DNA of 64,000 bases. Origin: Halomonas caseinilytica. GTDB taxonomy: Bacteria; Pseudomonadota; Gammaproteobacteria; Pseudomonadales; Halomonadaceae. Under the pieces are notes generated by a model, which searched no databases, was not told where the DNA came from, and saw only the letters and a list, made by a program, of their open reading frames with translations. This document shows, piece by piece, positions 11,098 through 43,245 of this stretch; position 1 is the stretch's first letter; the number at the start of each line of letters is the position of its first letter. The stretch covers positions 62,001 through 126,000 of the forward strand of contig NZ_BDEP01000015.1 in the NCBI RefSeq assembly GCF_001662305.1, read 5' to 3'. The position numbers were made by a program, and so were the translations under genes.

Positions 11098-11114
11098 GAC
11101 GTCATGGATTGGGG

Positions 11115-12026: not shown

Positions 12027-12115
12027 GTTAGTGTCTAGGGTCCTGATTTGCCATACTCTTGTATGCGACGAGTCGCGGTCCCGCGACCATTCATCAACGA
12101 GGAGGATGCTTCATC

Positions 12116-12727: not shown

Positions 12728-12767
12728 GGCATCGCCTGATCGCGCCCATATGCGGTGCTACCAGATT

Positions 12768-12804
12768 CGCCAGGGTCGGTTCTTCGCCGGCCCTGGCGTT
12801 TTTC
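12768..12804 (+). terminator. Rho-independent terminator after sodA
   Basis: Perfect 8-bp stem CGCCAGGG / CCCTGGCG with a 16-nt loop, followed directly by five T, 40 bp after the sodA stop. Confidence 0.85.
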
Positions 12805-12851
12805 GTTTGTCTGCGTGTCGAGGTGTCCCGTGCGCTCAAGGAGGACCATGC

Positions 12852-14648: not shown

Positions 14649-14709
14649 TTGCCCTATGCGCCTACGAGGCCTTGGTGCAGCGCGGCCGAGCGGCAAAGTG
14701 CGATGAACC

Positions 14710-14738
14710 AAAAAAACCGGCGGCCCTCGGCCGCCGGT
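14710..14738 (-). terminator. Rho-independent terminator of the minus-strand receptor gene
   Basis: Perfect 10-bp stem ACCGGCGGCC / GGCCGCCGGT with a 3-nt loop. A run of seven A on the plus strand becomes the U-tract for the minus-strand transcript ending at 14763. Confidence 0.8.
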
Positions 14739-14762
14739 GTTCGTCTAGGAGATCGGTCTTGA

Positions 14763-16841: not shown

Positions 16842-16887
16842 GCAGGTATCCTGTCGGGTTGTGCTGTTATCGGGCCAAGAAGCTTTG

Positions 16888-21413: not shown

Positions 21414-21490
<77 letters not shown>

Positions 21491-21587: not shown

Positions 21588-22649
21588 ATGGCCACCATCG
21601 TCAAGACCCCTGCCGGCAGCTGGAAAGCCGTCATCCGCAAGACCGGCTGGCCGACCACCGCCAAGACCTTCCGCACCAAGCGTGACGCCCAGGACTGGGC
21701 ACGCCGCACCGAAGACGAAATGGTGCGTGGCGTCTATATCCAACGCAGCGCCTCGGAGCGGATGACGCTGGAAGCGGCACTCAAGCGCTACCTCGCGGAC
21801 GTTACCCCTACCAAGAAGCCCAGCACCCAAAAGAGCGAACGCCAAAAGGCCAACACGCTGATTGAGCACCTGGGCAAATACTCCCTGGCGGCCCTGACGC
21901 CGGAACTGATCGCCAACTACCGCGACACGCGGCTCAACAGCCTGGGGCGTCGGGGACAGCCCATTAGCCCCAACACCGTGCGCCTGGAACTCGCCCTGCT
22001 TGGCCATCTCTACACCGTGGCCATCCAGGAATGGGGCCTCGGCCTGACCTACAACCCCGTCCAGAACATCCGCAAACCCAGTCCTGGGGAAGGCCGCGAC
22101 AGACGCCTGAGCCCCGACGAGGAGAAGCGTCTGTTCGCCGTGCTACGGCAGCACAGCAACCCCATGCTGGCCTGGATCGCCAGAATCGCCTTGGAGACGG
22201 GTATGCGCTCCTCGGAGATCCTGACCCTCACTCGCTCCCAGGTCGACGTGAAACGCCGCGTGGTGCGGCTCACGGACACCAAGAACAACGAAGCCCGCCT
22301 GGTGCCGCTGACCCAAGCTGCCACCGAAGTGTTTAAGGAGGCGCTGAGCAATCCTGTGCGGCCAATCGATTGCGACCTGGTGTTCTTTGGCGAGCCTGGA
22401 AAGGATGGCAAGCGCGCCCCCTACGCCTATACCAAACTCTGGAACCAGGCGAAAAAGAAAGCTAGGCTCAGTGATTTTCGCTTCCACGACTTAAGACATG
22501 AGGCAGTCAGCCGATTAGTAGAAGCAGGGCTGTCTGACCAAGAGGTAGCGGCAATCAGTGGTCACAAGTCCATGCAGATGCTGAGGCGATATACGCACCT
22601 GCGAGCTGAGGATTTGGTTTTGAAGCTGGATAGACTGAATAATATTTAA
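21588..22649 (+). CDS. int: Tyrosine-type site-specific integrase
   Basis: The 353-residue recombinase has an N-terminal arm-binding region, a core-binding SAM-like domain (about residues 60-155) and a catalytic domain. The visible catalytic set is complete: Arg207 (ETGMRSSEI), Lys232 (TKNNEAR), His300 and Arg303 (HDLRHEA), His326 (GHKSM) and Tyr335 (RRYTHL). GGAG precedes the ATG. It lies 98 bp from the tRNA and would integrate and excise the island between the 43-bp repeats. It appears intact, so mobility is plausible. Confidence 0.95.
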   Translation: MATIVKTPAGSWKAVIRKTGWPTTAKTFRTKRDAQDWARRTEDEMVRGVYIQRSASERMTLEAALKRYLADVTPTKKPSTQKSERQKANTLIEHLGKYSLAALTPELIANYRDTRLNSLGRRGQPISPNTVRLELALLGHLYTVAIQEWGLGLTYNPVQNIRKPSPGEGRDRRLSPDEEKRLFAVLRQHSNPMLAWIARIALETGMRSSEILTLTRSQVDVKRRVVRLTDTKNNEARLVPLTQAATEVFKEALSNPVRPIDCDLVFFGEPGKDGKRAPYAYTKLWNQAKKKARLSDFRFHDLRHEAVSRLVEAGLSDQEVAAISGHKSMQMLRRYTHLRAEDLVLKLDRLNNI

Positions 22650-22679
22650 GATTTTATTTATTAATTATTGGATTCCCCT

Positions 22680-23990
22680 ATGCATGAATTCTCTCTTGAG
22701 CGAAAGGCTGAACAGATCCACTATGGAAAAACGAAAGGGTACTTTGAAGAGGTCTTGTCGTCTTACAATAATGGTAACTATCGCTCTGCTGTTGTTATGC
22801 TTTGGTCAGTAGCAATATGTGATATTGTCTATAAACTGCAAAGCCTTGTGGATTTATACGATGATGCGGCTGCCAAAGAGATTCTGAATGAAGTTTCAGG
22901 TATACAGGAAAAGGACTATAAGACTTCATCGTGGGAGTTGAAGCTGCTGGATGAAGCTCACGAAAAAACGTATTTGCTTGATTCTTATGAATACGAAAAT
23001 TTAAGATACCTCCAGAAGCAAAGGCACCTTTCGGCACACCCAGTTTTAAATTCCGAACGTGAGCTACACTCTCCCAACAAAGAGACTGCAAGGTCTTTGC
23101 TTAGAAATACTCTCGAAGGTCTGTTAGTCAAGCCCCCTTTCTATACTCAGCGAGTCATGACAGAGCTTCTGGAAGATCTTTCCGAAAATTCTGCGATTTT
23201 GAATTCTCAGGAAAAGGTTAAAAGATATATAGAGAGTAGATATTTGAGCCGGACGAAGCCGGCTGTTGAAGTTCGTATGTTTCGCACTTTATGGAAGCTT
23301 GTTTTTAAGCTGGAAGATGATAGTTGCGAGAAAAACAGGCGTGTTAACTTAAATGCGCTTAAGGTGTTGTCAAATAGAAACCCTGACTTTATTCTAAGAG
23401 AAGTTGATGGGGATAAAGATTATTATGGTAATGTAGCTTCATCTGGAAATCCATTGTCTTTTTTGGTTTATTATATTTCAGAAAATACAAGCGTATACTC
23501 ACTTTTAAGTGAAGATGCTCGTATGAAAATTGATCATTGCATTAAGACGGATGATGTTGGAAAAACGATGGGGTGGTTTGTCAAGGAGAGTTTGTTGCAG
23601 CATGGTGAAGATGTGAAAGCCTGGGTTATAGGTGAGGATCACCCGGATTTTACTAATAGACAGTTTGATGCTCTGTTGAATTTATCCGACTCTGATGAAT
23701 GGCAAGAACTTTTTTGCTCCATAGTAATAGGCTACTACACATCAAGCTTAAGCTACTCACAAGCAGACAAAAGGTTTCAGGTTGCAATTCCAAAGTATAT
23801 TGCACTTTTTGGACGTAATGAGCTAATCAGTTTGGATGAAAATATTGAGAATAATAGCCAATGTTGGGCGCGTAATCGGGCTGAGGAGGATTATGAGGTA
23901 ATCATGGGGCGAATTACTGAGGTGTTTGGTCAAGACTTTGATTTTGAAAATACTCCTAGGTTTAAAAAAAGAGTGGTCGGTAATAAATAA
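22680..23990 (+). CDS. Unrecognised protein with HEPN-like motif
   Basis: The 436-residue AT-rich gene follows int by 30 bp on the same strand. I do not recognise the family. The N-terminal ~130 residues look like an all-helical HEPN-type domain: NGNYRSAVVMLWSVAICDIVYKL, then KQRHLSAHPV, where Arg115-x4-His120 fits the R-x4-6-H signature of HEPN RNases. The remaining 300 residues are charged and mostly helical with no motif I can name. The start is ATG at 22680 with only a weak ribosome site. AT content well above the host suggests recent acquisition. Confidence 0.55.
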   Translation: MHEFSLERKAEQIHYGKTKGYFEEVLSSYNNGNYRSAVVMLWSVAICDIVYKLQSLVDLYDDAAAKEILNEVSGIQEKDYKTSSWELKLLDEAHEKTYLLDSYEYENLRYLQKQRHLSAHPVLNSERELHSPNKETARSLLRNTLEGLLVKPPFYTQRVMTELLEDLSENSAILNSQEKVKRYIESRYLSRTKPAVEVRMFRTLWKLVFKLEDDSCEKNRRVNLNALKVLSNRNPDFILREVDGDKDYYGNVASSGNPLSFLVYYISENTSVYSLLSEDARMKIDHCIKTDDVGKTMGWFVKESLLQHGEDVKAWVIGEDHPDFTNRQFDALLNLSDSDEWQELFCSIVIGYYTSSLSYSQADKRFQVAIPKYIALFGRNELISLDENIENNSQCWARNRAEEDYEVIMGRITEVFGQDFDFENTPRFKKRVVGNK

Positions 23991-27261: not shown

Positions 27262-27468
27262 ATGGGAAAATCGCTGTTAGATCGCTGCTTTACCGCTTCT
27301 GGAGCGCTGCATTATCGCCTTAAGTGTCGACTTCATCAGGGGTCGAGACTGTTTGTCACGGATGCACAGGAAAAAACAGACCCGTGCAACGTAATGCAGA
27401 GAAATAGCGATGCTTTGCACATGGCGTACCAACAAAAATCAACGCTGAAGTGCGGGCAGGATGTGTGA
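27262..27468 (+). CDS. Small hypothetical protein
   Basis: A 68-residue ORF (MGKSLLDRCFTASGALHYRLKC...) with AGGGAG five bases upstream lies between the iterons and oriT. It is cysteine-containing (Cys9, Cys23 and others) and matches nothing I know. Its 3' end runs into the oriT nick region, so it may be non-coding leader DNA instead. Confidence 0.3.
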   Translation: MGKSLLDRCFTASGALHYRLKCRLHQGSRLFVTDAQEKTDPCNVMQRNSDALHMAYQQKSTLKCGQDV

Positions 27469-27560
27469 AGTAGTCCCACCTCGCAAGCGAGGTGTTCCTC
27501 TTCACTGGTCCTTATTCGCACCTGCGGTGCTCAACGGACATCCTGCTCTGCGAGGCATGG
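27450..27560 (-). other. oriT: RK2-type (IncP-1, MOBP) origin of transfer
   Basis: On the minus strand the sequence reads CTTCACACATCCTGCCCGC, carrying the IncP nick motif ATCCTG-C (predicted nic between 27457 and 27456). Continuing upstream on that strand is a perfect 8-bp hairpin (27477-27494; CACCTCGC-AA-GCGAGGTG), then GTGAAGAGGAACACC, AGGTGCGAATAAGG, CCGTTGAGCACCGC and GCCTCGCAGAGCAGGAT. Every block lines up in order with RK2 oriT as I remember it. It is adjacent to and divergent from traJ, as in RK2. Confidence 0.9.
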
Positions 27561-27580: not shown

Positions 27581-27952
27581 ATGAGTGAGAAGCAAAGGGT
27601 GACACGGAAGAACAGCACTCCGCTCAAGGTGTACTGCCTTCCGGAAGAGAGAGAACTGATTGAATCCAACGCCAGGCAGGCAGGGCTAAGCGTTGCTTGT
27701 TATCTGCGGGAAGTGGGGCAGGGCTATCAGGTCAATGGCGTTATGGACTACGAGTATGTCCGCGAGCTGGTTCGTGTAAATGGTGACTTGGGGCGTTTAG
27801 GGGGCCTGCTCAAGCTCTGGCTGACAGATGACGTGAGAACGGCTCGCTTCGGGGCGGCTACCATCCTTAGCCTGCTCGGAAGGATCGAAGCCACTCAGGA
27901 GGAAATGAGTCAGGTATTGAAATCCGTGGTACAGCCAAGGGCCAGGTCGTGA
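27581..27952 (+). CDS. traJ: TraJ-like relaxosome accessory protein
   Basis: The 123-residue product matches IncP TraJ along its length: PLKVYCLPEEREL near the N-terminus, then VACYLREVGQGYQ, YEYVRELVRVNGDLGRLGGLLKLWLTDD and RTARFGAATILSLLGRIE. TraJ binds the oriT inverted repeat and recruits TraI. The start (AGGAG four bases upstream) lies 20 bp from oriT. The frame is open upstream to 27461, but that part is oriT DNA. A KorB-type operator follows the stop codon. Confidence 0.92.
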   Translation: MSEKQRVTRKNSTPLKVYCLPEERELIESNARQAGLSVACYLREVGQGYQVNGVMDYEYVRELVRVNGDLGRLGGLLKLWLTDDVRTARFGAATILSLLGRIEATQEEMSQVLKSVVQPRARS

Positions 27953-27969: not shown

Positions 27970-27986
27970 ATGTGGGGCTGGCACTC

Positions 27987-29768
27987 ATGATCGCCAAACA
28001 CGTCCCCATGCGCTCCCTGGGCAAGTCAGACTTTGCTGGTCTGGTGAACTACATCACCGACGAGCAAAGCAAGGAGCACCGTCTTGGCGCGGTACGTCTG
28101 ACCAACTGCGAGGCGTATTCGGTCCAGGATGCCGTCAGCGAGGTACTAGCGACCCAGTTCGCCAATACCCGAGCGAAGAGCGACAAGACCTATCACTTGA
28201 TTGTCAGCTTCCGGGCCGGGGAACAGGTTGAGGCTGATACCCTGGTGGCCATCGAGGACCGTATTTGCAAGGGGCTGGGCTTTGGAGAGCATCAGCGCAT
28301 TAGTGCCGTTCACAACGATACCGACAACCTGCACATCCATATCGCCATCAACAAGATCCACCCGACGCGCAACATCATCCACGAACCATACTACCCACAC
28401 CAGACGCTGGCCGAGCTGTGCGAGGTCATGGAACGGGATTACGGGTTGCAGCAGGACAACCACATGCCGCGCCGACACGGGGCCGAGTCGCGAGCCGCCG
28501 ACATGGAGCGTCATGCCGGTATTGAAAGCCTGATCGGTTGGATCAAACGCGAGTGCCTGGACAACATCAAAACCGCGCAGTCCTGGGCTGAGCTACACCA
28601 GGTCATGCGTGACAATGGCCTGGAACTCCGGGCGCGGGGGAATGGGCTGGTTGTCGTGGCCGGTGATGACGCGGCGGTCAAGGCGAGCACCTTGGGGCGG
28701 GATTTCTCCAAGCCGAAGCTAGAGGCCCGTTTCGGCCCGTTCGAGCCTGACCAGGCGCAACAGGGCAAGCCCCACCGCCAGTACCGCAAAGACCCGGTAC
28801 GGCTGCGCGTGAACACCACCGAGCTTTACGCCCGGTTCAAATCAGAACAGCAGAGCGCGGCAGCCAACAAGACGGCGGCCCTGGACAAAGCCCGGCGGCA
28901 GAAAGACCGCCGGATAGAGAACGCTAAGAAGAAGGGCAAGGCCCGGCGGGCGGCCATCAAGCTCACCAGCGGCAGGCTGACCAAGAAGGTGCTGTATGCG
29001 CAGGCCAGCAGCGCCCTGAAAGCCGACATTGACGCGACCCAGAAGCAGTACCGTGAGGAACGCCAGGCGATCCATGAAGCACACGGGCGCCGCACCTGGG
29101 CCGACTGGCTAAAACGGGAAGCCTTGCAGGGCGATATCGAGGCCCTGGCCGCGTTGCGAGCCAGAGAGGCCGCCCAGGGCCTCAAGGGCAACACCTTGAA
29201 GGGTGAGGGACAGGCGAAGCCCGGCCATGTGCCGGTGATCGACAACATCACCAAGAAAGGCACCATCATTTACCGGGCCGGAGCCAGCGCCGTGCGCGAC
29301 GATGGCGACCGGCTCCAGGTGTCCAGGAAGTCCGACCAGGCAGGCATCCAAAACGCGCTAAGGATGGCCATGGAGCGCTACGGTGAGCGCATCACCGTGA
29401 ACGGTTCGCCAGAGTTCAAAGCGCGGGTGATCAAGGCGGCAGCGGAGGGACAGTTGCCTATCCGGTTTGCGGACCCCGAGCTGGAACGTCGGCGCCAAGC
29501 CATGGCGAACGGCGAGAACATCGCCCCGGCCAAGACCCGAAGCAAACGGGCGGGAGTGCCGCCCATCGGTCAGCCGCCACCCCCGGTGCGCCGGAACCGG
29601 CTGCAATCGCTGTCCCGGGCCGATGTGCTTCACCTTGAGGGACAAACGGGCAAGACTCCGGCACCGCCCCTACAGGGGCCGAGCGAGCAAGAGCGTCGCA
29701 AAGCCAAGTTACGGGCAGAGATGGACGCCAAGAGGGCAAAAAGACAGCAAAAGGGACGTTCACTATAG
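27987..29768 (+). CDS. traI: MOBP relaxase, IncP TraI-like
   Basis: The 593-residue relaxase starts MIAKHVPMRSLGKSDF like RK2 TraI. It has the nicking tyrosine Tyr22 (NYITDEQSK), motif II around TYHLIVSFRAGEQ, and the metal motif III HNDTDNLHIHIAINK (His109, His116, His118). It cuts oriT at nic, stays bound to the 5' end and pilots the strand into the recipient. It is shorter than the ~730-residue RK2 protein and has its own proline-rich C-terminus. GGGG upstream favours ATG 27987 over 27972. All catalytic residues are present, so it should be active. Confidence 0.93.
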   Translation: MIAKHVPMRSLGKSDFAGLVNYITDEQSKEHRLGAVRLTNCEAYSVQDAVSEVLATQFANTRAKSDKTYHLIVSFRAGEQVEADTLVAIEDRICKGLGFGEHQRISAVHNDTDNLHIHIAINKIHPTRNIIHEPYYPHQTLAELCEVMERDYGLQQDNHMPRRHGAESRAADMERHAGIESLIGWIKRECLDNIKTAQSWAELHQVMRDNGLELRARGNGLVVVAGDDAAVKASTLGRDFSKPKLEARFGPFEPDQAQQGKPHRQYRKDPVRLRVNTTELYARFKSEQQSAAANKTAALDKARRQKDRRIENAKKKGKARRAAIKLTSGRLTKKVLYAQASSALKADIDATQKQYREERQAIHEAHGRRTWADWLKREALQGDIEALAALRAREAAQGLKGNTLKGEGQAKPGHVPVIDNITKKGTIIYRAGASAVRDDGDRLQVSRKSDQAGIQNALRMAMERYGERITVNGSPEFKARVIKAAAEGQLPIRFADPELERRRQAMANGENIAPAKTRSKRAGVPPIGQPPPPVRRNRLQSLSRADVLHLEGQTGKTPAPPLQGPSEQERRKAKLRAEMDAKRAKRQQKGRSL

Positions 29769-30054: not shown

Positions 30055-30822
30055 ATGAGAAGAGAACGAATTTTAGCGGCTAAAACGGCTGCCCTCATCA
30101 TGTCCTTGGCGTTGACCACGTCCATGCCTGCCCAAGCGGGCATTCCTGTCGTCGACGGCACCAATCTTCAGCAAAACGTCATGACGGCGATGGAGTCCGT
30201 CTCACAGACCCTCAAGCAGATCGAGCAGTACCAGACGCAGTTGCAGCAGTATGAAAACCAGTTGCAAAACACCATGGCTCCTGCGGCCTATATCTGGGAT
30301 AGGGCACAATCCACGATTAATGATCTGATCCAAGCCACCAATACGCTTCAGCATTATCAGAACCAGCTCGGCAGCCTCGATGCCTACCTAGGCAAGTTCC
30401 AAGACGTAGCGTATTACCGGAGTTCTCCCTGCTTCAATGGCGGCGGTTGCACGGATGCCGAACGTGCAGCGATGGATGAAAACCGCCGCCTGGCGTCTGA
30501 ATCGCAAAAAGCGGCCAACGATGCGCTCTTCCGGGGGCTGGATCAGCAACAGGATAATCTGGCGTCTGATGCTCGACAGCTTGAACGTCTGCAATTTGCT
30601 GCTCAGGGCGCGGATGGCCAACTTGCCGCCATTGGTTACGCCAACCAACTAGCCAGTAACCAGGCCAACCAACTTCTGCAAATCCGCAGCTTGCTGATTG
30701 CTCAGCAGAACGCTGAAGCCGCCCGTCTTGCCGCCGAACTGGATGCAAACGCCAGAGGGGAAGCGCGGGAAAGGCAGATGCGTACCTGGAATTACCAACC
30801 TAGCGCAGCAGATCGCTATTAA
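30055..30822 (+). CDS. trbJ: TrbJ-like conjugation protein (VirB5-like)
   Basis: The 255-residue product has a signal peptide ending AQA and then GIPVVDGTNLQQN. Next come long coiled-coil helices rich in Gln (QIEQYQTQLQQYENQLQNT) and a conserved centre VAYYRSSPCFNGGGCT. The C-terminal block GYANQLASNQANQLLQIRSLLIAQQNA closely matches RK2 TrbJ. TrbJ is a VirB5-type component of the mating apparatus, in the periplasm or at the pilus. A KorB-type operator overlaps codons 6-10. It heads a trbJ-trbK-trbL run without the other trb genes. Confidence 0.92.
   Translation: MRRERILAAKTAALIMSLALTTSMPAQAGIPVVDGTNLQQNVMTAMESVSQTLKQIEQYQTQLQQYENQLQNTMAPAAYIWDRAQSTINDLIQATNTLQHYQNQLGSLDAYLGKFQDVAYYRSSPCFNGGGCTDAERAAMDENRRLASESQKAANDALFRGLDQQQDNLASDARQLERLQFAAQGADGQLAAIGYANQLASNQANQLLQIRSLLIAQQNAEAARLAAELDANARGEARERQMRTWNYQPSAADRY
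30070..30082. promoter_or_regulatory. KorB-type operator (OB) 3, inside trbJ
   Basis: TTTAGCGGCTAAA occurs 15 bp into the trbJ reading frame, where it encodes part of ILAAK. This position could block transcription or early elongation when KorB is bound. Confidence 0.7.
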
Positions 30823-30832
30823 GGAGGCTGCG

Positions 30833-31063
30833 ATGAAGAAGATCATTCCACTTGTGGCAGCTATTGCCTTGGTAGGTTGTGAGCAGGAAACGGTACCAGA
30901 GGCGAGCGCGATCACGTGTGCGCCAGTTGCCTTTCAGCAGGCTATCCGCGAGCTGAGCCGAGAATCGAACCGAAAAGCCTTTACCGAAGCCTGCCGATCT
31001 TTCGAGAAGGCCCAACGCATGCGGGAATGGGAGTTTGAGCCCAGCTCCCCCGACAGATATTGA
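30833..31063 (+). CDS. trbK: TrbK-like entry-exclusion lipoprotein
   Basis: The 76-residue product begins MKKIIPLVAAIALVGCEQE, a lipoprotein signal with lipobox LVGC. AAGGAGG stands five bases upstream of the ATG and 10 bp after trbJ. In RK2 the small lipoprotein TrbK, encoded between trbJ and trbL, blocks entry of a second IncP plasmid. Size, lipobox and position match. Its C-terminus (FEPSSPDRY) resembles that of the upstream TrbJ (YQPSAADRY). It may protect the host cell, or the island, against IncP plasmids. Confidence 0.82.
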   Translation: MKKIIPLVAAIALVGCEQETVPEASAITCAPVAFQQAIRELSRESNRKAFTEACRSFEKAQRMREWEFEPSSPDRY

Positions 31064-31076
31064 GGGAGGGCGTCGC

Positions 31077-32573
31077 ATGAAACGATTCGTGTTTGGTGGT
31101 TTGGGCGTGATCGCCGTCGTCCTGCTGTCCGATACCGCAATGGCTCAGGAGCTATCCAGCAGCAACATCATGGATGATGTGTTGGATCGCTTTCATTCCG
31201 CGGCATCAACGTGGGGGCCTGTCATAGAAGCGGCCGCCAGTCGGTTGTTCTGGACCCTGGTCGTGATCTCGATGGTCTGGACGTTCGGCATGATGGCACT
31301 GCGTAAGGCCGACATTGGTGAGTTCTTTGCCGAGCTTGTTCGTTTCACCATCTTTACAGGCTTTTTCTGGTGGTTGCTGACGAACGCGACTCAGGGCATG
31401 AACATCGCGGGAACCATTGTACAGTCATTGCAAACCCTTGGGGCACAGGCCGGTGGCCTCTCTAACAGCAACTTGGGGCCGTCCAGTATCCTCGATATCG
31501 GTTTTGAACTGTACGACCAGACGGTGAAGGCTACGTCAGAGTTGAGCTGGAAACAGTTTGCCACTGCGTTGGTGATGGAAGGTATGGCCTTGGCCGTATT
31601 GCTGGTGTTGGCGATTATCTCCGTCAACCTGCTCCTGCTGCTAGCCGCCAGTTGGATACTGCTTTATGCGGGAGTGTTTTTCCTGGGGTTTGGCGGCTCC
31701 CGTTGGACATCAGACATGGCGATCAACTATTACAAGGCCATTCTCGGCATAGCGGCTCAGTTGATGGCAATGGTGCTCCTGGTCGCCATCGGTAGAGAGT
31801 TTATTACTCACTACTACTCGCAGTTGAGCGAGAACATGGCGTCCCAGGAGTTGGTCGTGATGCTGGTTGTTTCGGTGATCCTGCTGTTCCTGGTTAACAA
31901 GATTCCACCGATGATTTCCGGCCTGGTGTCGGGTGGCAGTGTGGGAGCAATGGGCATCGGGTCATTCGGTGCCGGTGCTGCGGTAGGAGCAGCCATGACA
32001 GCGGCAGGTATGGCCCTCACGGCGGGCAAGATGGCTGGGAGCGCAATGTTGGGCGGTGCGGCGAATGCAGTAGGTGGCGGGTCAGCCATCAAGGCTGCCT
32101 TCGAGAAGGCCCAGTCCAATATGTCTGGGTCTGGAGCCGACGTGCCGAGCTTTGGCACTGGAGGTGACAGCAAGGGTGGTGGGAGTGGCAGCAGCTCCAC
32201 CGGAAATGAAGCGGGCACCGGTGACACCCCATTTGCGCAGGCGGCTGGTTTCGCTGGTCCTGGCTCCCGATCTGGTGGCGGTAGCGGATTCAGGCGAGCA
32301 GCATCCTTGGGAGCGGGAACGGCTGGCGAGCTAGCTAAAGGGGTTGGGTCGAAGATGGCTGGGAAGTTCCAGGGCAAGGTCGATCAAACCGCTGGTGGCC
32401 GCTTGGCGTCCTCCATCCGCGCGGGCATGGAGCCGGAAGGGGATAGTGATGTCGCAGAAGCGGACGACTCTGCTCCCTCATTCGATAGTAACAGCCTGGG
32501 CGGTAGTGAATACCAGCAGGACCGTAGCGACGAGATCGCTCGCTTTGTGAACCGTGGCCAACAGGACACCTAA
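31077..32573 (+). CDS. trbL: TrbL-like conjugal transfer membrane protein (VirB6-like)
   Basis: The 498-residue protein has a signal-like N-terminus, about six transmembrane helices (for example FWTLVVISMVWTFGMMAL, LAVLLVLAIISVNLLLLLAASWILLYAGVFFLGFGG) and the TrbL/VirB6 motif GFGGSRWTSDMAINYYKA. After residue ~330 a long Gly/Ser/Ala-rich hydrophilic tail begins. TrbL forms part of the inner-membrane channel of the IncP type IV secretion system. GGAGGG precedes the ATG, 13 bp after trbK. The channel ATPases and core complex are absent from the island, so a helper is required. Confidence 0.9.
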   Translation: MKRFVFGGLGVIAVVLLSDTAMAQELSSSNIMDDVLDRFHSAASTWGPVIEAAASRLFWTLVVISMVWTFGMMALRKADIGEFFAELVRFTIFTGFFWWLLTNATQGMNIAGTIVQSLQTLGAQAGGLSNSNLGPSSILDIGFELYDQTVKATSELSWKQFATALVMEGMALAVLLVLAIISVNLLLLLAASWILLYAGVFFLGFGGSRWTSDMAINYYKAILGIAAQLMAMVLLVAIGREFITHYYSQLSENMASQELVVMLVVSVILLFLVNKIPPMISGLVSGGSVGAMGIGSFGAGAAVGAAMTAAGMALTAGKMAGSAMLGGAANAVGGGSAIKAAFEKAQSNMSGSGADVPSFGTGGDSKGGGSGSSSTGNEAGTGDTPFAQAAGFAGPGSRSGGGSGFRRAASLGAGTAGELAKGVGSKMAGKFQGKVDQTAGGRLASSIRAGMEPEGDSDVAEADDSAPSFDSNSLGGSEYQQDRSDEIARFVNRGQQDT

Positions 32574-32585
32574 GGAGATCTCACG

Positions 32586-32852
32586 ATGAAACAACGCCAT
32601 TTTATGGTAGCCCTGGATATGCTCGACGAAGAGCGGGAGGCCTACACAGAAGCCGCTTTCGTACCTGCTGTCGAGCTATCGGTCGAGGGAGAGAGGAACC
32701 TTGGGGCAGAGATTGCCGCTTTCGTGAACCGTCCGGCCCACTCGGGCCGCGAGGAGGCACCACGCAGCACGCACACTAGCAACGATGTAGGAGCTGGAAC
32801 CGGAAGAACCCCGTTTTCAGAGGCGGCGGGATTTTCCGATACTGGCTTCTGA
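32586..32852 (+). CDS. Small protein resembling the TrbL C-terminal tail
   Basis: The 88-residue product follows trbL by 12 bp with AAGGAG upstream. Its C-terminus GAGTGRTPFSEAAGF resembles GTGDTPFAQAAGF in the TrbL tail, and EIAAFVNRPA resembles EIARFVNRGQ at the TrbL end. It thus looks like a duplicated, rearranged piece of TrbL's tail with a new N-terminus (MKQRHFMVALDMLDEE). No membrane segment is visible. It may interact with the same partner as the TrbL tail; no function is known. Confidence 0.55.
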   Translation: MKQRHFMVALDMLDEEREAYTEAAFVPAVELSVEGERNLGAEIAAFVNRPAHSGREEAPRSTHTSNDVGAGTGRTPFSEAAGFSDTGF

Positions 32853-32920: not shown

Positions 32921-33121
32921 ATGACCGGGAAGACACGCTGGCAACGGCGTAAAGAGCTGGAAGACAAAACCGTCGAGCAGGTCGGCGAGACGCACCCAGA
33001 AAGCGGGGAGCCGGCGGTTCGGTGGCTGACTTCCGAAGAGCTGGATGAACTGCGGCGAGATATGAAAGAAGCATCTGCCTGGGCGCGGGCTGAACTGAAA
33101 CGGCGAAAAACAGATAGTTAG
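32921..33121 (+). CDS. Small charged hypothetical protein
   Basis: The 66-residue, highly charged helical protein (MTGKTRWQRRKELEDKTVEQVGE...) has AGGAGG five bases before the ATG. It ends the trb-side cluster, 152 bp before the DUF2075 gene. The family is not recognised; composition suggests a soluble, possibly nucleic-acid-binding protein. Confidence 0.55.
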   Translation: MTGKTRWQRRKELEDKTVEQVGETHPESGEPAVRWLTSEELDELRRDMKEASAWARAELKRRKTDS

Positions 33122-33272: not shown

Positions 33273-35663
33273 ATGCTGGTCTACAACGCCACCAAGCAGC
33301 AGTTCATCGACGATGTACGAGCCAACGTCATCACCGACGCCATCGAGAACGAGGTGGCACGCAGACTGAACCGCAACTCGCCGCGCAGCGAGGTGGCGTC
33401 GTGGGAGAACTCCCTGCGCTTCATGATGAGCGTTCTGCTCGACGAGGGCATTCCCGCATCGGCGGGAGTGGCCATCGAGTACAACATTCCGCTGACCAAT
33501 CGCCGTGTGGACTTCATCCTGACCGGCAAGAACCACCAGCGGGACGATGCAGCGGTCATCGTTGAGCTGAAACAGTGGCAGTCCGTCGAGGTGACGAAGA
33601 AGGATGCCATCGTGCGCACCCAGCTGGGCGGCGGCGTGCGCGAGACCAACCATCCGTCGTACCAGGCGTGGTCCTATGGCGCGCTGATCGAAGACTACAA
33701 CGAGACGGTACGCTCCGAGTCGATCCGCCTGGTGCCCTGCGCCTACCTGCACAACATGAAGCAGGGGAACGCCATCAATGATCCCTTCTACGAGCATCAC
33801 ACGCGCCGTGCGCCGGTCTTCATTTCGCAGGATGCCTTGAAGCTTTCGAAGTTTCTGAGCCAGCACATCAAGTACGGTGACAGCAACAACATCATGTATC
33901 GCATCGAGCATGGTGTGATCAAGCCGAGCAAGAACCTGGCGGATGCCCTGGCATCAATGATGCAGGGCAACGCCGAGTTCCTGATGATCGACGACCAGAA
34001 GCTGGTCTATGAAACCGCCATCGATCTTGCGCATCGCGCAGGCAGCGGCAAAAAGCAGTGCCTGATCGTCAAGGGCGGACCGGGCACCGGCAAATCGGTG
34101 GTGGCCATCAACCTGCTGGTGGAGCTGACGAAGCGCGAGATGATGACTCAGTACGTCTCGCGCAACTCGGCCCCTCGTGAGGTCTTCAAGAAGAAGCTGA
34201 CCGGCACGCGCAAGAAGACGCACATCGACAACCTGTTCAAGGGCTCGGGCAGCTACGTCAACGCCGAGCCGGATACCTTCCATGCGCTGATCGTTGACGA
34301 GGCGCACCGGCTGAACGAGAAGTCGGGCATGTATCAGAACCTGGGCGAGAGCCAGATTAAGGAGGTGATCGCCGCGTCACGCTTTTCGATCTTCTTTATC
34401 GATGAAGCGCAGCGCGTAACGCTGAAGGACGTGGGGACGGTCGAGGAGATCCGGCGGCGGGCGGCCGAGTGCGGCGCCGATGTCCACGAACTTGAGCTGG
34501 CGTCGCAGTTTCGCTGCAACGGCTCGGACGGTTACCTGGCATGGCTCGATCATGCCCTTCAGGTTCGTACCACGGCCAACACCGATCTGGAGGACATCGA
34601 TTACGACTTCCAGGTATTCGACGACCCGAGTGCCATGCGCCGGGCGATTCTCGATAAGAACCGCAAGGCCAACAAGGCACGCATGGTGGCGGGCTACTGC
34701 TGGCCTTGGGCCAGCAAGAAGGACAAGCAGGCCATGGACATCGTGTTTCCCGAACATGACTTCGCGGCCCAGTGGAACCTCGATGACGACGGCATGCTTT
34801 GGGCGATCGCCGATGGATCAGCAGAGCAGATCGGCTGCATTCACACCTGCCAGGGGCTCGAGTTCGACTACGTCGGTGTCATCATCGGAGACGACTTCGT
34901 GATTCGTGACGGTCGCGTGGTGACAGACGCGGGCAAGCGGGCGGGGCAGGACCGCTCGGTTCATGGCTACAAGAAGATGCTCAAGGAGCAGCCTGAGCAT
35001 GCCCGTGCCCTGGCGGACCAGATCATCAAGAACACCTATCGCACGCTGATGACACGGGGCCAGAAGGGCTGTTACGTCTATGCCACGGACCCCGAGACCC
35101 GCGAGTACTTCGCGGCCTATGCTCGCTCTCAAGCAGCGGCTGAGCGGCTGGACGCGCCCGAGAATGCCGAGACGCTGGATGGCTTGCATCTTCCCATCGT
35201 GACGCGTGATGAGGCGGTGCCGTTCGAGCGCCATGTACCCGTCTACGACCTGAGCATCGCCGCTGGTGAGTTCAGCGAGATGCAGATCGCCGAAGCCGAG
35301 CACTGGGTCGAGCTGCCGGACTTCATGCGGGCAAGCCCCGGTCTGTTCGTCAGCCGGGTGGTGGGGGAGTCGATGAACCGGCGCATTCCCAATGGCGCCT
35401 GGTGCCTGTTCCGTGCCAACCCAGGCGGCACACGGCAAGGAAAGGTCGTCGTGGTGCAGCATCGCGCCATCGAGGACCCGGATCATGGTGGCAGCTTCAC
35501 GGTGAAGCAGTATCAGAGCGAGAAGGTCGAGGAGTACGGCGAGTTCGTGAACCAACGCATCGTGCTGAAGCCCCAGACCAACGCCTTCGGCTACAAGGAC
35601 ATCGTGCTCGAGGACGAGCTTGAGGACCTGAAGGTCATCGGCGAATTCCTCTCCGTGCTGTGA
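33273..35663 (+). CDS. PD-(D/E)XK nuclease - DUF2075 ATPase - S24 peptidase fusion
   Basis: The 796-residue protein has three parts. Residues 60-110 look like a PD-(D/E)XK nuclease core (NRRVDFILTG... VIVELKQW). Residues 250-620 are a DUF2075 superfamily-1 helicase-like ATPase with Walker A GGPGTGKSV (Lys274), a DEAH box (LIVDEAHRL) and IHTCQGLEFDYVGVIIG. Residues ~680-790 are an S24/LexA-like peptidase with the dyad Ser700 (VVGESMN) and Lys745 (FTVKQY) retained, so self-cleavage is possible. MazG and a broken SRAP gene follow, a set I associate with DNA-damage response or defence. GC content is host-like, unlike flanking AT-rich cargo. Confidence 0.8.
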   Translation: MLVYNATKQQFIDDVRANVITDAIENEVARRLNRNSPRSEVASWENSLRFMMSVLLDEGIPASAGVAIEYNIPLTNRRVDFILTGKNHQRDDAAVIVELKQWQSVEVTKKDAIVRTQLGGGVRETNHPSYQAWSYGALIEDYNETVRSESIRLVPCAYLHNMKQGNAINDPFYEHHTRRAPVFISQDALKLSKFLSQHIKYGDSNNIMYRIEHGVIKPSKNLADALASMMQGNAEFLMIDDQKLVYETAIDLAHRAGSGKKQCLIVKGGPGTGKSVVAINLLVELTKREMMTQYVSRNSAPREVFKKKLTGTRKKTHIDNLFKGSGSYVNAEPDTFHALIVDEAHRLNEKSGMYQNLGESQIKEVIAASRFSIFFIDEAQRVTLKDVGTVEEIRRRAAECGADVHELELASQFRCNGSDGYLAWLDHALQVRTTANTDLEDIDYDFQVFDDPSAMRRAILDKNRKANKARMVAGYCWPWASKKDKQAMDIVFPEHDFAAQWNLDDDGMLWAIADGSAEQIGCIHTCQGLEFDYVGVIIGDDFVIRDGRVVTDAGKRAGQDRSVHGYKKMLKEQPEHARALADQIIKNTYRTLMTRGQKGCYVYATDPETREYFAAYARSQAAAERLDAPENAETLDGLHLPIVTRDEAVPFERHVPVYDLSIAAGEFSEMQIAEAEHWVELPDFMRASPGLFVSRVVGESMNRRIPNGAWCLFRANPGGTRQGKVVVVQHRAIEDPDHGGSFTVKQYQSEKVEEYGEFVNQRIVLKPQTNAFGYKDIVLEDELEDLKVIGEFLSVL

Positions 35664-35770: not shown

Positions 35771-36127
35771 ATGTCAGACCCGTTCAAGCAGCTCCGCGAC
35801 GCCATGGACCAGTTCGCCACCGAGCGCGACTGGGACCAGTTCCACTCGCCCAAGAACCTGGCCATGGCGCTGACGGTGGAGGCAGCTGAGCTGCAGGAGT
35901 GCTTTCAGTGGCTGACCGAGGCGCAGTCCACGGAGCTGGATGAGCAGCAACTGGCCGCCGTGCGCGACGAAATTGCCGATGTGCAGCTCTATCTGATCCG
36001 GCTGGCGGGCAAGCTGGACGTGGATATCGAAGCGGCATGCCGGGCGAAGATGGAGAAGAATGCGCAGAAATATCCCGCCGACCAAGTGAAGGGAAGTGCG
36101 AAAAAGTACACGCACTATCAGGATTAA
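35771..36127 (+). CDS. MazG-like nucleotide pyrophosphohydrolase
   Basis: The 118-residue product belongs to the short MazG/RS21-C6-like family: LTVEAAELQECFQWL followed by DEIADVQLYLIRLA supplies the E-x3-E...E-x2-D residues for Mg2+ and nucleotide hydrolysis. These enzymes remove pyrophosphate from dNTPs or damaged nucleotides. It lies 107 bp after the DUF2075 fusion on the same strand and probably works with it. Confidence 0.85.
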   Translation: MSDPFKQLRDAMDQFATERDWDQFHSPKNLAMALTVEAAELQECFQWLTEAQSTELDEQQLAAVRDEIADVQLYLIRLAGKLDVDIEAACRAKMEKNAQKYPADQVKGSAKKYTHYQD

Positions 36128-36348: not shown

Positions 36349-37125
36349 GTGAAAATAAACCAGTTGCTGCACAAGATACCATATGGCGCCGTCGTGACGA
36401 CCGCCTGGCTAGCATCACACGGCGTCACCTCGGATCAGGCGCGAAAGCTGGCCGGCAGTGGCTGGCTGCAACGCGTGGGGCACGGCGCCTACTGCCAAGC
36501 GGGGGAGCCTCTTACCTGGGAGAGCGCTGTTTTCGCCCTGCAGACGAGCGACGACACGGGCTTACCACCGCTGTGGCCGGGTGGCCAGACAGCCCTGGCA
36601 CTGCATGGCTTTGCCCACTATCTGCCCATGGGGGAGCGCACAACGCACCTGTATGGCAAGGAGGCCGCTCGGCTGCCCCGGTGGTTGAGTGATGCCGAGT
36701 GGGCAGGGCGGATGGTGCTCCACTCTGAAAAGGGCCTGCCGGTGCAGCTTCCCGGTAGCTTCACGGACTACGCACCGGATGGCAGGGCCTTCAGCTTGCA
36801 GGTATCGACTCCTGAGAGAGCGGTCCTGGAGTGGATCGCCGTGACGCCGAATGAGCTGCTATTCGGCAGCGAGCTGGTGGATACCTTCAGCGGGCTCAAT
36901 ACGCTTCGTCCGCGCCGGCTGCAGGCATTGCTGGAGGGATGCCGTTCGGTGAGAACCAAGAGGGCCTTCTTGGTGCTGGCTCGCCACGCCGGGCATGCCT
37001 GGTACGGTCGTCTGGAACCACGCCGACTGGACCTCGGCAAAGGCAAGCGGCAGCTCTGCCAGGGCGGCAAGCTGGACAGGGAATATCACGTGACGGTGCC
37101 GGAGGCGTTCCTGCATGCCGATTGA
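36349..37125 (+). CDS. abiEi: AbiEi-type antitoxin/regulator
   Basis: The 258-residue product has an N-terminal winged helix (VVTTAWLASHGVTSDQARKLAGSGWLQRVGHGAY) and the AbiEi C-terminal region (GGQTALALHGFAHYL, STPERAVLEWI). This is the COG5340 type. AbiEi represses the operon and neutralises AbiEii. Start is GTG at 36349, immediately after a candidate operator arm. It overlaps abiEii by 11 bp, showing tight coupling. Confidence 0.85.
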   Translation: MKINQLLHKIPYGAVVTTAWLASHGVTSDQARKLAGSGWLQRVGHGAYCQAGEPLTWESAVFALQTSDDTGLPPLWPGGQTALALHGFAHYLPMGERTTHLYGKEAARLPRWLSDAEWAGRMVLHSEKGLPVQLPGSFTDYAPDGRAFSLQVSTPERAVLEWIAVTPNELLFGSELVDTFSGLNTLRPRRLQALLEGCRSVRTKRAFLVLARHAGHAWYGRLEPRRLDLGKGKRQLCQGGKLDREYHVTVPEAFLHAD

Positions 37126-38035
37126 AGCTCGCTACCACGAACAGGTCAGGCTGCTGGTCTCGCTGCTGCCTTATCTCAATGATGAGCCGTGTTTCGCCCT
37201 CAAGGGGGGCACGGCCATCAATCTCTTCGTGCAGCCATTACCTCGCCTATCGGTCGATATCGACCTGGCCTACTTGCCGTTGGAGCCCCGTGACGAGGCC
37301 CTGCGACGCTGTCGCGAGGCGCTGCAGCGGCTGGCAGAGACTTTTAGTGCCAGACTGCCAGGCGTGCGCGCCGAGCTTCAGGATAATCGCCGAGACGAGC
37401 TGAGAATCCTAGTGCGTCGAGGTCGCAGCCAGGTGAAGGTGGAGGTATCGCCGGTACTGCGTGGCACTCTGCACCCGCCGCAGGAGCGCGATGTCGTGGA
37501 AGCAGTGGAAGACGATTACGGCTTCGCTGCGGTGCAGGTGGTGTCACTGCCTGACCTGTATGGCGGCAAGATCTGCGCCGCGCTGGATCGCCAGCACCCC
37601 CGGGACCTTTTCGATGTGAAGCTGCTGCTGAACCAGGGCGGCCTGAATCGAAGCGTATTCGAAGGCTTCCTGGTCTATCTGCTGGGGCATCCCAGGCCCT
37701 TGAACGAGGTGATCAACCCTCGGCTGAAACCGTTGGACGACGTCTACCGACAGGAGTTTGTCGGGATGGCCAGGGTTGATCTTCCTTTGCAGGAACTGGA
37801 GGACGTCCGGCACGAACTCCTGACGCGGTTGGGCCAACTGACCACCAATGAGGATATCCGCTTTCTTCTGTCCTTCAAGCAGGGGGCGCCTGACTGGGCG
37901 CTGCTTTCGCTGCAGGGCGTTGATCGGCTGCCTGCCGTGCGCTGGAAGCTAGCCAATATCCAGAGGATGACGCTTGACAAGCACCGTCAGTCACTAGAGC
38001 TATTGGAGCAGGCGCTGGGTAGCCTTCGGAGGTGA
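37115..38035 (+). CDS. abiEii: AbiEii-type nucleotidyltransferase toxin
   Basis: The 306-residue protein carries the AbiEii nucleotidyltransferase motifs: LKGGTAINLF, SVDIDLAYL (the D-x-D metal ligands), and later VVSLPDLYGGKICAALDRQHPRDLFDVKLLL, the conserved central block of the family. AbiE toxins act on nucleic acid acceptors such as tRNA and arrest growth of phage-infected cells. All visible motifs are intact. It forms a type IV-like toxin-antitoxin pair with the overlapping upstream gene, which would also stabilise the island. Confidence 0.87.
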   Translation: MPIEARYHEQVRLLVSLLPYLNDEPCFALKGGTAINLFVQPLPRLSVDIDLAYLPLEPRDEALRRCREALQRLAETFSARLPGVRAELQDNRRDELRILVRRGRSQVKVEVSPVLRGTLHPPQERDVVEAVEDDYGFAAVQVVSLPDLYGGKICAALDRQHPRDLFDVKLLLNQGGLNRSVFEGFLVYLLGHPRPLNEVINPRLKPLDDVYRQEFVGMARVDLPLQELEDVRHELLTRLGQLTTNEDIRFLLSFKQGAPDWALLSLQGVDRLPAVRWKLANIQRMTLDKHRQSLELLEQALGSLRR

Positions 38036-38711: not shown

Positions 38712-39482
38712 ATGCAGGCAGTTCCTCGAGTTACGGTTGACAAGTTTTCACGCGCTTACGGCGGGCAGCGCGTAGGGTTTTCCGCAAAACAAATCACGGA
38801 TTACTTCGCACGATTTTCGCCACTAGTGAAACCATATGATCATTATGCTATGAACCCGACGCGCTTACAGCTTTTCGTCGAGTCCGTATATGCGCTAACA
38901 CCCGAACAACAGTACTACGCGCTTAACGACCTTACATTTTTCGAATACGAGTCCCGGTACGGGTACCCACCAGAGGACGAACGTGCCTCTTTGCGTGAAG
39001 AGTTACACTCGTACATATCCAAGACTCCGATCGGCTTAGCATTTTCAGAACTTAGAGAAACTGCTTTTCGCAAAGACTGGGTCACGGCACATGGGCGTTT
39101 ACTTGCAAATCCTGCAGCAGCGGTAACAGCTGCTCGAACACTTTTGGAAACTTTTTTTAAGACAATTATTAGCGAGCGCGATAGTGAGCCAGATACCTCA
39201 GGAAGCCTAAGTCGCCTCCTCAAGCAGGCCCAGGATGCCGTTGGTTTTGTACGTGCAGAGAACCAGGCGGAGCACCAGCTTCTGCAGGGCCTCGTCAGCA
39301 CGATTGAAGGCGTGGCAAGCATTAGCAACGCGGCCGGTGATCGGCACGGAACAATCGCCGGAGTGAGCCTGAACGACCCCCACCTTGCGTACCTCTGCGT
39401 GAACGCTTGTGGTACCGTGGGCTTGTGCTTTATTAAAAAGCATCTCTTTGAGCCGCTTCCTCAGAAAAAAGAAACTAATTAA
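38712..39482 (+). CDS. Abortive-infection (Abi_C-like) protein
   Basis: The 256-residue protein has an unassigned N-terminal half and a C-terminal region resembling the Abi_C domain: AAAVTAARTLLETFFKTII, LSRLLKQAQDAVGF, and LLQGLVSTIEGVASISNAAGDRHG. Proteins with this domain are linked to phage abortive infection. It begins after a 200-bp AT-rich spacer and is followed after 11 bp by an ATPase gene, suggesting a two-gene system. Codon use and AT content differ from the AbiE module to the left. Confidence 0.65.
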   Translation: MQAVPRVTVDKFSRAYGGQRVGFSAKQITDYFARFSPLVKPYDHYAMNPTRLQLFVESVYALTPEQQYYALNDLTFFEYESRYGYPPEDERASLREELHSYISKTPIGLAFSELRETAFRKDWVTAHGRLLANPAAAVTAARTLLETFFKTIISERDSEPDTSGSLSRLLKQAQDAVGFVRAENQAEHQLLQGLVSTIEGVASISNAAGDRHGTIAGVSLNDPHLAYLCVNACGTVGLCFIKKHLFEPLPQKKETN

Positions 39483-39493: not shown

Positions 39494-40822
39494 ATGATTG
39501 AGGGGTATGATAAGTTTTCTTTTGGGAAGAAGTTGAATGAGGTGGTTTCGCCTGCAAGGCCAGTAATATCAATTGAGAATCTTATTGGCAGGGAAGATGA
39601 GTTAGATAGGATAGAAAAAGCTCTTTTTTCGCCCGGGAGAAATGTTTTTATATATGGCGAAAGAGGTGTGGGGAAATCATCACTTGCAGCAACTGCTGCA
39701 AATCAATGGCAAAGCTCTGACGCCGAATATATTGATGTATCTTGCTCGCCTGATTCGACAGTTAAGTCTATTGTTGCAAGTGTTGCTTCTCAAGCTGTGA
39801 ATGCCAGCTGGATATCAGATTCTAGACTTACTGAGCAGGCTACTATAGGGCTGCAATGGCTAAAGTACTCAATCAAAAGCGAAGTGTCTCCAACGGATTT
39901 TTCCGAAAAGATTCGTGGCATTAGTGACGCTGTTGAAGTGTTAAAAGAAGTGTCTTTGATACATTCAGAAGTACCAGTAGTGGTTGTGGATGAGGTGGAT
40001 AGGATTGAGTGCGAGCGGGAAATTGATTTTTTGGCGGATCTTCTAAAACAAATTGGCGACAAGAGGGTTGAGATAAAATTTATTTTTACCGGTGTTGGTG
40101 AGACCCTGAATGAAATTCTTGGCGCACATCAATCAGCAATACGTCAACTGGAAACCATAGAACTGCCTAGATTAAGCTGGGATGCTCGTTGGGATATTGC
40201 AATTCACGCGCTAAAAGAATTTAACATAGAAATTTCAAGAGATATTTATATTCGCATAGCAGCAGTAAGTGATGGCTACCCTTATTATGTTCACCTGATA
40301 GTTGAAAAGTTGTTGTGGATACTTTTTGAGAAAGATGAAGTGGTTGCGGAAGTAACTTGGGATGATTACTACTCAGCTCTTTATAAAGCAATATTGGGGA
40401 TAGCTGCGGAGCTAGCTAGACCATATGAACTAGCTGTTAATCAGCGCAGCCAAGACTATGAAGAGGTTCTTTGGTCAACTTCAGCTGATGAGTGGCAAGG
40501 TGCATATCTTTCGGACATGCATAAGCAGTATACAAATATTATGTCACAGGTTGATGATAAGCTTCCTCTTCCTTACGATAAGTACTCTTCAAGGGTTAGA
40601 AACCTCTTGAAGCCTGAATATGGTGAAATTTTAAAAAAGGGTAAAAAGCAAGGGTATTACCACTATCGCGAAAAAATGCTTCGTGGTTATATACGAATGC
40701 AAGCAGAAGCAAATAGAGTTGAAATCATTAGCAAAGAAGCCGAGGCAACTATAAAGAATTTCATACATGTTGCGGCAAAGAATGTTGGTTATCACAAATC
40801 AAAGCCGCCTAAAGGTTTGTAG
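39494..40822 (+). CDS. AAA+/STAND-like ATPase
   Basis: The 442-residue protein has Walker A YGERGVGKSS near residue 55, Walker B VPVVVVDEVDRI, sensor-like IKFIFTGVGE, and a Cdc6/Orc-like lid (IRQLETIELPRLSWDARWDIAIHALKEF). The C-terminal part after ~330 is basic and may be a winged helix. STAND and related ATPases often act as sensors or switches in antiphage systems. It is coupled to the Abi_C-like gene (11-bp gap). Family placement beyond AAA+ is not certain. Confidence 0.65.
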   Translation: MIEGYDKFSFGKKLNEVVSPARPVISIENLIGREDELDRIEKALFSPGRNVFIYGERGVGKSSLAATAANQWQSSDAEYIDVSCSPDSTVKSIVASVASQAVNASWISDSRLTEQATIGLQWLKYSIKSEVSPTDFSEKIRGISDAVEVLKEVSLIHSEVPVVVVDEVDRIECEREIDFLADLLKQIGDKRVEIKFIFTGVGETLNEILGAHQSAIRQLETIELPRLSWDARWDIAIHALKEFNIEISRDIYIRIAAVSDGYPYYVHLIVEKLLWILFEKDEVVAEVTWDDYYSALYKAILGIAAELARPYELAVNQRSQDYEEVLWSTSADEWQGAYLSDMHKQYTNIMSQVDDKLPLPYDKYSSRVRNLLKPEYGEILKKGKKQGYYHYREKMLRGYIRMQAEANRVEIISKEAEATIKNFIHVAAKNVGYHKSKPPKGL

Positions 40823-43202: not shown

Positions 43203-43245
43203 ACTCATAATCCCTTGGTCGCTGGTTCGAGTCCAGCTGGGCCCA
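43203..43245. repeat. attR: 43-bp direct repeat of the tRNA-Ile 3' half
   Basis: Identical to 21445-21487, from ACTCATAATCCC to CTGGGCCCA. It lacks the tRNA 5' half and the CCA is altered to TCA, so it is not a tRNA gene. It marks the right boundary of the island. Confidence 0.93.

Follow-up and report, generated by a model that had tools for sequence, protein, structure and literature searches.

Mobilizable islands that carry trbJ, trbK and trbL and no other mating-pair genes have been described before. A 2017 review presents this anatomy as the IncP island, with GIsul2 as a relative lacking a relaxase, and proposes that TrbJ, TrbK and TrbL reshape the apparatus of a helper plasmid and aid the invasion of helper-holding cells, the helper itself being marked as proposed (PMC5704250). 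The stand-alone set is thus of a known kind, and its interpretation had already been proposed. A Pseudomonas plasmid reported in 2022 has traJ, traK, traI and trbJ-K-L and lacks trbB-I, yet a virB4 gene is listed for it (PMC9501424). We describe an island of this kind in Halomonas caseinilytica, on a 64,000-nucleotide stretch of contig NZ_BDEP01000015.1 (positions 62,001 to 126,000; assembly GCF_001662305.1), hereafter the window. Comparing its trbJ-trbK-trbL set with relatives pointed to two patterns: a cassette that is exchanged as a unit and a TrbK tail that resembles the tail of its own TrbJ.

Like the IncP island of Burkholderia glumae and relatives, the island in the window has a MOBP relaxase, a relaxosome protein, TrbJ, TrbK and TrbL, and no other mating-pair genes (PMC5704250). 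It differs in its insertion at tRNA-Met, whereas the table of the review places the Brucella suis element at the guaA 3' end. TraK is named for the Burkholderia element but is not treated as essential here; one TraK query (E limit 1e-3) matched nothing in the window, a search that a diverged TraK could escape. The cited passages of the review do not mention cassette exchange, a tail match or the 88-codon gene that follows trbL here (open reading frame (ORF) 88, ORF88). GIsul2 shares trbJ-trbK-trbL, an ORF88 homologue and the same cassette type (type I, below); it differs in having no relaxase of its own (PMC5704250) and a ptaRNA1-family toxin gene after the set. SGI1, which replaces TraN, TraG and TraH in IncC plasmids, is likewise a mobilizable island whose VirB6 homologue replaces that of the helper and evades exclusion. 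There, however, the apparatus is F-type, an exclusion system of its own is not known and replacement has been proven by experiment (PMC5704250, PMC11493245), whereas the island in the window resembles it by anatomy only. IncP-1 plasmids (RP4/R751 group) have the same gene order, a TrbJ up to 80 per cent identical over residues 3-215 and the TrbJ-TrbK tail match; they differ in their complete Trb system, in a TrbL membrane domain at most about 61 per cent identical to that of the window among the matches listed, and in ORF88 (0/17 complete systems examined). The TraC-EexN-VirB6 genes of IncN R46 follow the same VirB5-Eex-VirB6 order and their tails match modestly (the own partner leads by one point), but they belong to a complete plasmid and have an unrelated tail sequence.

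Exchange of a trbJ-trbK-trbL cassette

Trees of the TrbL membrane domain, built without L067 (truncated TrbL), divide the stand-alone sets into several deep types. The window and GIsul2 belong to type I, and L059, L062-L066, L068, L072, L079, L083 and L086 belong to type III. The TrbL tail and ORF88 group across these types. L022 (type I) and L068 (type III) are 82 per cent identical in TrbJ, 80 per cent in the TrbL tail and 81 per cent in ORF88, with 17 per cent in TrbK and 47 per cent in the TrbL membrane domain. A pair from another tail family, L004 and L083, gives 81, 87 and 80 per cent for the former three and 36 and 50 per cent for the latter two. Conversely, L083 and L068 are both type III and share 83 per cent of the membrane domain, yet only 59 per cent of the TrbL tail and 38 per cent of ORF88. 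The TraI of L068 is 92.7 per cent identical to that of the window over 592 residues, yet its cassette is type III.

The borders of the divergent segment can be placed on the DNA. Across nine pairs with DNA identity profiles (two complete-system pairs were compared by protein identity only), identity drops at about nucleotides 640-680 of trbJ and returns around codons 320-360 of trbL. The cassette starts in the last ~40 codons of trbJ and ends just past the membrane domain of trbL; TrbJ residues 1-215 are kept across types in the alignment. Between types I and III, TrbL differs most at residues 1-30, 136-165 and 241-255, of which the second and third stretches are not strongly hydrophobic.

Approximately unbiased (AU) tests, with groups chosen after the data had been seen and L001 and L014 left out, agree with exchange. 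Membrane-domain data reject monophyly for both tail family X and tail family Y (P = 8e-113 and 2e-70), and tail plus ORF88 data reject type III as one clade (P = 3e-33). Well-supported branches of the tail and membrane trees force at least two exchanges. In sixty of sixty-four distinct loci, the TrbJ tail, TrbK and the membrane domain were all nearest to one reference type; this count drops L008 (broken TrbJ call), L067 and loci lacking a TrbJ or TrbK call. The four non-concordant loci (L076, L088, L116, L117) each have at least one part without a good fit to any reference, and for L088 the first of two trbK genes was used, which may explain its discordance. We conclude from these alignments and trees that the TrbJ C-terminal tail, TrbK and the TrbL membrane domain are inherited and exchanged as one cassette, a pattern new to this study.

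TrbK tails resemble the tails of their own TrbJ

Because the cassette begins in the TrbJ tail, the tails of TrbJ and TrbK were compared. By eye, the C-termini of TrbK and of its own TrbJ look alike at nearly every locus compared, with the exceptions of L008 and the first trbK of L088. In the window the pair is RTWNYQPSAADRY (TrbJ) and REWEFEPSSPDRY (TrbK), in type III it is LSQPVNRSHSKEY and LKEPVDRSKSKEF, and in a Sphingobium plasmid RKTKPTPIGTYQN and HETKPTPIGTYQN.

A first set of 102 loci, which drops L008 and loci lacking a TrbJ or TrbK call and uses the second trbK of L088 (chosen after seeing both), formed nine clusters. The own TrbK was best for all nine TrbJ tails and the sum was reached by 0/100,000 permutations; in four control comparisons, 3166 to 16867 of 20,000 did so. 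For the second set, 299 genomes of the host's phylum were searched with the TrbJ family, which gave thirty loci. Seven were left out because trbJ is not followed there by a small ORF whose start is hydrophobic, and the remaining twenty-three pairs formed seven clusters. The own partner was best in six, and the sum was attained by 21/100,000 permutations, close to the number that the order of identities gives by itself (more than 94,000 for the controls). This set is only partly new, as the window supplies one of its pairs and some of the rest belong to types met before. Pooling 125 pairs, R388 included, gave twelve clusters with the own partner best for ten (z = 8.7, 0/100,000 permutations), and the neighbouring segments used as controls were null (z = 1.0, -0.8 and -0.3). 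Ri-type and further systems fit the match, which is weak in IncN and R388. TrbK thus ends in a copy of its own TrbJ's tail, even though the tail types differ completely from one another. This too is new here: we found no earlier report of the likeness in the titles and abstract openings of the papers listed by literature searches, or in passages of PMC8923210, PMC12624023, PMC11493245, PMC13381706, PMC7690428 and PMC5704250, with subscription papers mostly outside this scope.

In the window the two tails are equal in 7/13 residues and only 21/39 bases, so the likeness is probably old. At L111 and L116 the 3' ends of trbJ and trbK are nearly identical (36/39 and 35/39 bases); there the likeness looks recent, as if one gene had lately been copied into the other. 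L088 has two consecutive trbK genes (12565-12950), of which the second alone ends in the tail of its TrbJ. Two loci stood outside the tail counts, Vibrio L122 (no TrbK between TrbJ and TrbL) and Neisseria L120 (trbK unannotated). In L120, an unannotated lipoprotein-like frame between trbJ and trbL has, by eye, an end matching the TrbJ tail and is a candidate for the exclusion gene.

The set in the window and its relatives

The window carries trbJ, trbK, trbL and ORF88 in that order and at the positions first called (Table 1). The initial annotation had held that only TrbJ, TrbK and TrbL of the IncP apparatus are kept, in plasmid order. The set and its order stand, by coordinates and NCBIfam scores, and the rest of Trb was not found: TrbB-I and TrbM-P of one IncP plasmid had no match in the window (tblastn, E limit 1e-3). 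The word 'only' was too narrow, since IncP-type traJ and traI are retained as well, just upstream of the set. The annotation of an exclusion lipoprotein and a channel protein agrees with scores above the family cut-offs, and TrbK further has a lipobox and the expected place between trbJ and trbL. The host assembly, a draft of thirty-eight contigs, yielded one TrbL and no match to VirB4 (PF03135) or VirD4 (PF02534), and so no complete P-type conjugation system, for which both would be present.

A TrbL profile run over species genomes gave 251 relatives, and the best eighty of these were used. TrbB to TrbI were absent from the DNA examined in seventy-six of the eighty (seventeen of the seventy-six have less than 9 kb before trbL, where an upstream gene could be missed), and a TrbJ match was present in seventy-four of the seventy-six. 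Near-copies are numerous, with the GIsul2 TrbL sequence in 31/89 records, R16a included. Among eight related islands, the ratio of nonsynonymous to synonymous substitution rates (dN/dS) was 0.08 for trbJ, 0.11 for trbK, 0.07 for the TrbL membrane part, 0.21 for the TrbL tail and 0.28 for ORF88, indicating purifying selection on all four genes. These results bear on whether the set is the relic of a decayed conjugative system, with the tail likeness a functionless remnant of an old duplication. The genes do have IncP homologues, and two loci do have near-identical DNA in both tails. A relic would nevertheless have to account for a TrbJ match kept at seventy-four loci without TrbB to TrbI, for the low dN/dS, and for a tail match in ten of twelve clusters that neighbouring segments do not show, and we consider it very improbable.

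In plasmids, the window's TrbL membrane domain had 825 matches among 72,556 records. Twenty of the sixty matches listed exceed 70 per cent identity and the other forty are at or below about 61 per cent; two more records fall at 60-80 per cent beyond these sixty. The five of the twenty that were examined (L001, L003, L004, L112, L113) are all stand-alone sets. For the type III membrane domain the best plasmid matches are 76-78 per cent identical, and the one examined, L159, is stand-alone in the 22.2 of 25.9 kb covered, with no other mating-pair gene there. The island's named relatives (L007-L016) suggest a host among the Halomonadaceae, with the proviso that islands move. Within the host's family, a TrbL-like match occurs in 23/201 genomes, eleven of the twenty-three (own genome included) at 94 per cent identity or more, and a TrbE-like match in 8/201. 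The two occur together in three genomes (G043, G121, G132); among these, the TrbL match is close in G043 alone (94 per cent).

The 88-codon gene and the TrbL tail

The initial annotation had also claimed that the gene after trbL reuses pieces of the TrbL tail, and this proved correct. The window's 88-residue protein scored 83 against the TrbL tail, a score reached by 0/5000 shuffles, and its match to the TrbL membrane part was not above chance (3562/5000). The two tail motifs have the approximate consensus TPFAQAAGF (motif A) and EIASFVNR (motif B), and ORF88 carries both in reversed order. Among thirty-six distinct frames of the ORF88 family, thirty-four have motif A, thirty motif B and twenty-nine both; in a background of 9770 other distinct frames, three match motif A and four match motif B, and three of these resemble TrbL pieces. 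The patterns were written after the data had been seen. Since the GIsul2 homologue alone did not exceed shuffles against the TrbL tail (2314/5000), the case rests on the family. A rule that ORF88 occurs only where TrbL has lost motif B was dropped, as the window has both.

ORF88 was counted in 101 records, namely the best eighty relatives, the window and twenty plasmid records picked from match lists. It was found in 70/84 stand-alone records (39/53 distinct ones) and in no complete system (Fisher P = 3e-8, for records that are not truly independent). L067 is counted as stand-alone without ORF88; L159, in which no ORF88 is annotated, is outside these counts. The longest frame of the family begins between 40 bases before and 15 bases after the trbL stop, leaving aside L014 and L002 (without trbL). 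In L014 the 88-residue gene is broken into two frames (11507-11772). Across the host's class the family is found in 2/274 genomes, the window's own and one other. By sequence, then, ORF88 belongs to a conserved family tied to stand-alone sets and carrying two TrbL-tail motifs, again new here.

The island and its cargo

A 43-bp segment of tRNA-Met, present in two copies, bounds the island of ~21.8 kb, which has the integrase at one end (Table 1). Given a tyrosine integrase, attachment repeats at a conserved gene, its own MOBP relaxase of the IncP kind, and TrbJ, TrbK and TrbL without the remaining mating-pair apparatus, it ranks among the IncP islands, a kind of integrative mobilizable element.

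Table 1. Features of the island in the window.
Feature	Position	Strand	Evidence or remark
tRNA-Met	21414-21490		
Attachment-site repeat, left island end, 3' part of tRNA-Met	21445..21487	+	43-bp exact direct repeat of 43203-43245
Tyrosine integrase	21588..22649	+	PF00589, E 3.8e-34
traJ-II RNA motif	27454..27557	+	RF01760, 102.7 bits (gathering 40)
traJ, relaxosome protein, IncP-type	27581..27952	+	NF010451, 196.8 bits (cut-off 134); start = ATG near beginning of family match
traI, MOBP relaxase, IncP kind	27972..29768	+	NF041893, 578.6 bits (cut-off 250)
trbJ, VirB5-type pilus-tip/stalk protein	30055..30822	+	NCBIfam NF010452, 400 bits (cut-off 286)
TrbJ variable C-terminal part, first cassette segment	30700..30819	+	Identity drop at ~nt 640-680 of trbJ; alignment
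TrbJ tail RTWNYQPSAADRY	30781..30819	+	Match to TrbK tail
trbK, predicted entry-exclusion lipoprotein	30833..31063	+	TrbK_RP4 TIGR04359, 41.3 bits (cut-off 23); lipobox-like LVGC
TrbK tail REWEFEPSSPDRY	31022..31060	+	Match to TrbJ tail
trbL, whole gene	31077-32573	+	NCBIfam TrbL_P, 250 bits (cut-off 129)
trbL membrane domain, VirB6-type, last cassette segment	31077..31961	+	PF04610, 135 bits
trbL Gly-rich C-terminal tail, outside cassette	31962..32573	+	
TrbL tail motif A, TPFAQAAGF	32226..32252	+	Motif A in 51/57 distinct TrbL
TrbL tail motif B, EIARFVNR	32532..32555	+	Motif B in 39/57 distinct TrbL
88-codon gene (ORF88), both TrbL-tail motifs, order reversed	32586..32852	+	
ORF88 motif B copy, EIAAFVNR	32709..32732	+	Sequence
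ORF88 motif A copy, TPFSEAAGF	32808..32834	+	Sequence
Attachment-site repeat, second copy, right island end	43203..43245	+	

Next to ORF88, a 66-residue ORF (32921-33121) has no convincing family match (best PHROGs E 0.025) and occupies the place of the ptaRNA1-family toxin gene of other sets (e.g. L001, L004, L112). The cargo of the island is rich in defence-type genes. An anti-phage protein PD-T7-3 (22668-23990) matches over its full length with 566 bits, and a Schlafen group 3 helicase domain is fused to a C-terminal S24 peptidase-like domain (33273-35663). An AbiEi/AbiEii pair (36349-38035) is surrounded by MazG-like (35771-36127), Abi_C (38712-39482), AAA ATPase (39494-40822), pentapeptide (41065-41946) and nucleotidyltransferase (41950-42570) genes. 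In such company TrbK could be one more defence item, a barrier that guards the host cell from incoming IncP-like plasmids, with TrbJ and TrbL carried along. PD-T7-3, AbiE and the other defence-type genes would suit this explanation. A barrier, however, would need no more than TrbK, whereas the island retains trbJ and trbL as well, and the dN/dS of trbJ and of the TrbL membrane part is no higher than that of trbK. We regard it as improbable.

A proposed mechanism for exclusion identity

We propose, with slightly better than even confidence, that the island remodels its helper and sets its exclusion identity through trbJ-trbK-trbL, with TrbK mimicking the TrbJ tail at TrbL. The island would supply its own relaxase and rely on a helper plasmid for the remaining parts of a P-type mating apparatus. 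The exclusion-identity part would be the tip protein TrbJ/VirB5, the recipient-side blocker TrbK and the membrane platform TrbL/VirB6. In the donor, the island's TrbJ and TrbL would replace those of the helper, and the helper's TrbK in recipients would then have no hold on the machine; in the recipient, the island's TrbK would keep out a further copy of its own type. To do so, the TrbK tail may occupy the site used by the TrbJ tail, most likely on the TrbL membrane domain, and transfer would stop. The weakest step concerns the 88-residue protein, which may use its likeness to the TrbL tail in a comparable way at a different face of the machine.

VirB5 rests on VirB6 before it becomes the pilus tip (PMC12624023), and the TrbK C-terminus is essential for exclusion in pKPC_UVA01, for which the authors cite the same in RP4 (PMC8923210). 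In the simplest reading, we infer, TrbK offers TrbL a copy of the TrbJ tail that TrbL would normally hold. The initial annotation had suggested a module that swaps helper subunits to avoid exclusion. That much fits the purifying selection, the 76/80 loci without TrbB to TrbI and the exchanged cassette; against it, no VirB4 was found in the host assembly, and the idea itself had been published (PMC5704250).

Alternatively, TrbK tails may recognize TrbJ (or TrbK) tails directly, like meeting like at the pilus tip, with TrbL merely linked. The direct resemblance of the two tails would follow from such recognition, as would the requirement for TrbK in both donor and recipient of pKPC_UVA01 (PMC8923210). 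Pure tail-tail contact does not, however, require the TrbL membrane domain to be exchanged along with the tails, and VirB6-type proteins are named as the target in the F, SXT and IncC systems (PMC11493245). We consider homotypic recognition somewhat unlikely.

Several results weigh against the mimicry mechanism or the two patterns beneath it. The need for TrbK in the pKPC_UVA01 donor is not predicted by simple mimicry at TrbL and favours like-meets-like contact in that system. The same TrbK also lowers the entry of IncP R751 and IncN R46, whose proteins are less than 35 per cent identical to it (PMC8923210), so that specificity is not strict there. A close helper was not found in the host's family (0/201 genomes with a TrbE above 40 per cent identity to the IncP one). 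For the tails, R388 (22 vs 24) and an ICE-type (integrative and conjugative element) cluster (15 vs 18) miss their own partner, and R46 prefers its own by a single point. For the cassette, whole-TrbJ data do not reject a type III clade (P = 0.159, with the swapped tail included in the alignment); the best trees from TrbJ and from tail plus ORF88 do not recover family Y as a clade, which is no more than not rejected (P = 0.501 and 0.471); and divergence along the cassette is uneven, TrbL residues 61-90 being nearly alike between types I and III. The AlphaFold models for TrbJ and TrbL were of poor quality (mean predicted local distance difference test score 50.0 and 45.8) and lend mimicry no support, and searches of solved structures with TrbJ and TrbL profiles gave no significant match (best E 0.082 and 6.2).

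Implications for exclusion

The tail pattern recurs in other transfer systems and, from sequence comparison, suggests how exclusion may choose its target. A broader proposal, which we make tentatively and hold at rather less than even odds, is that P-type entry exclusion in general could be tail mimicry, in which a lipoprotein bearing the tail of its own VirB5 is aimed at its own VirB6. An exclusion group would then change by exchange of one cassette (VirB5 tail, exclusion gene and VirB6 membrane domain), and the 88-residue protein would extend the trick to the VirB6 tail. The donor partner of the IncP TrbK is given as unidentified in the cited literature, and the tail match and the exchanged cassette together name candidate partners and residues. 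If true, they would explain type-specific exclusion, and a rule would follow for predicting which elements exclude each other.

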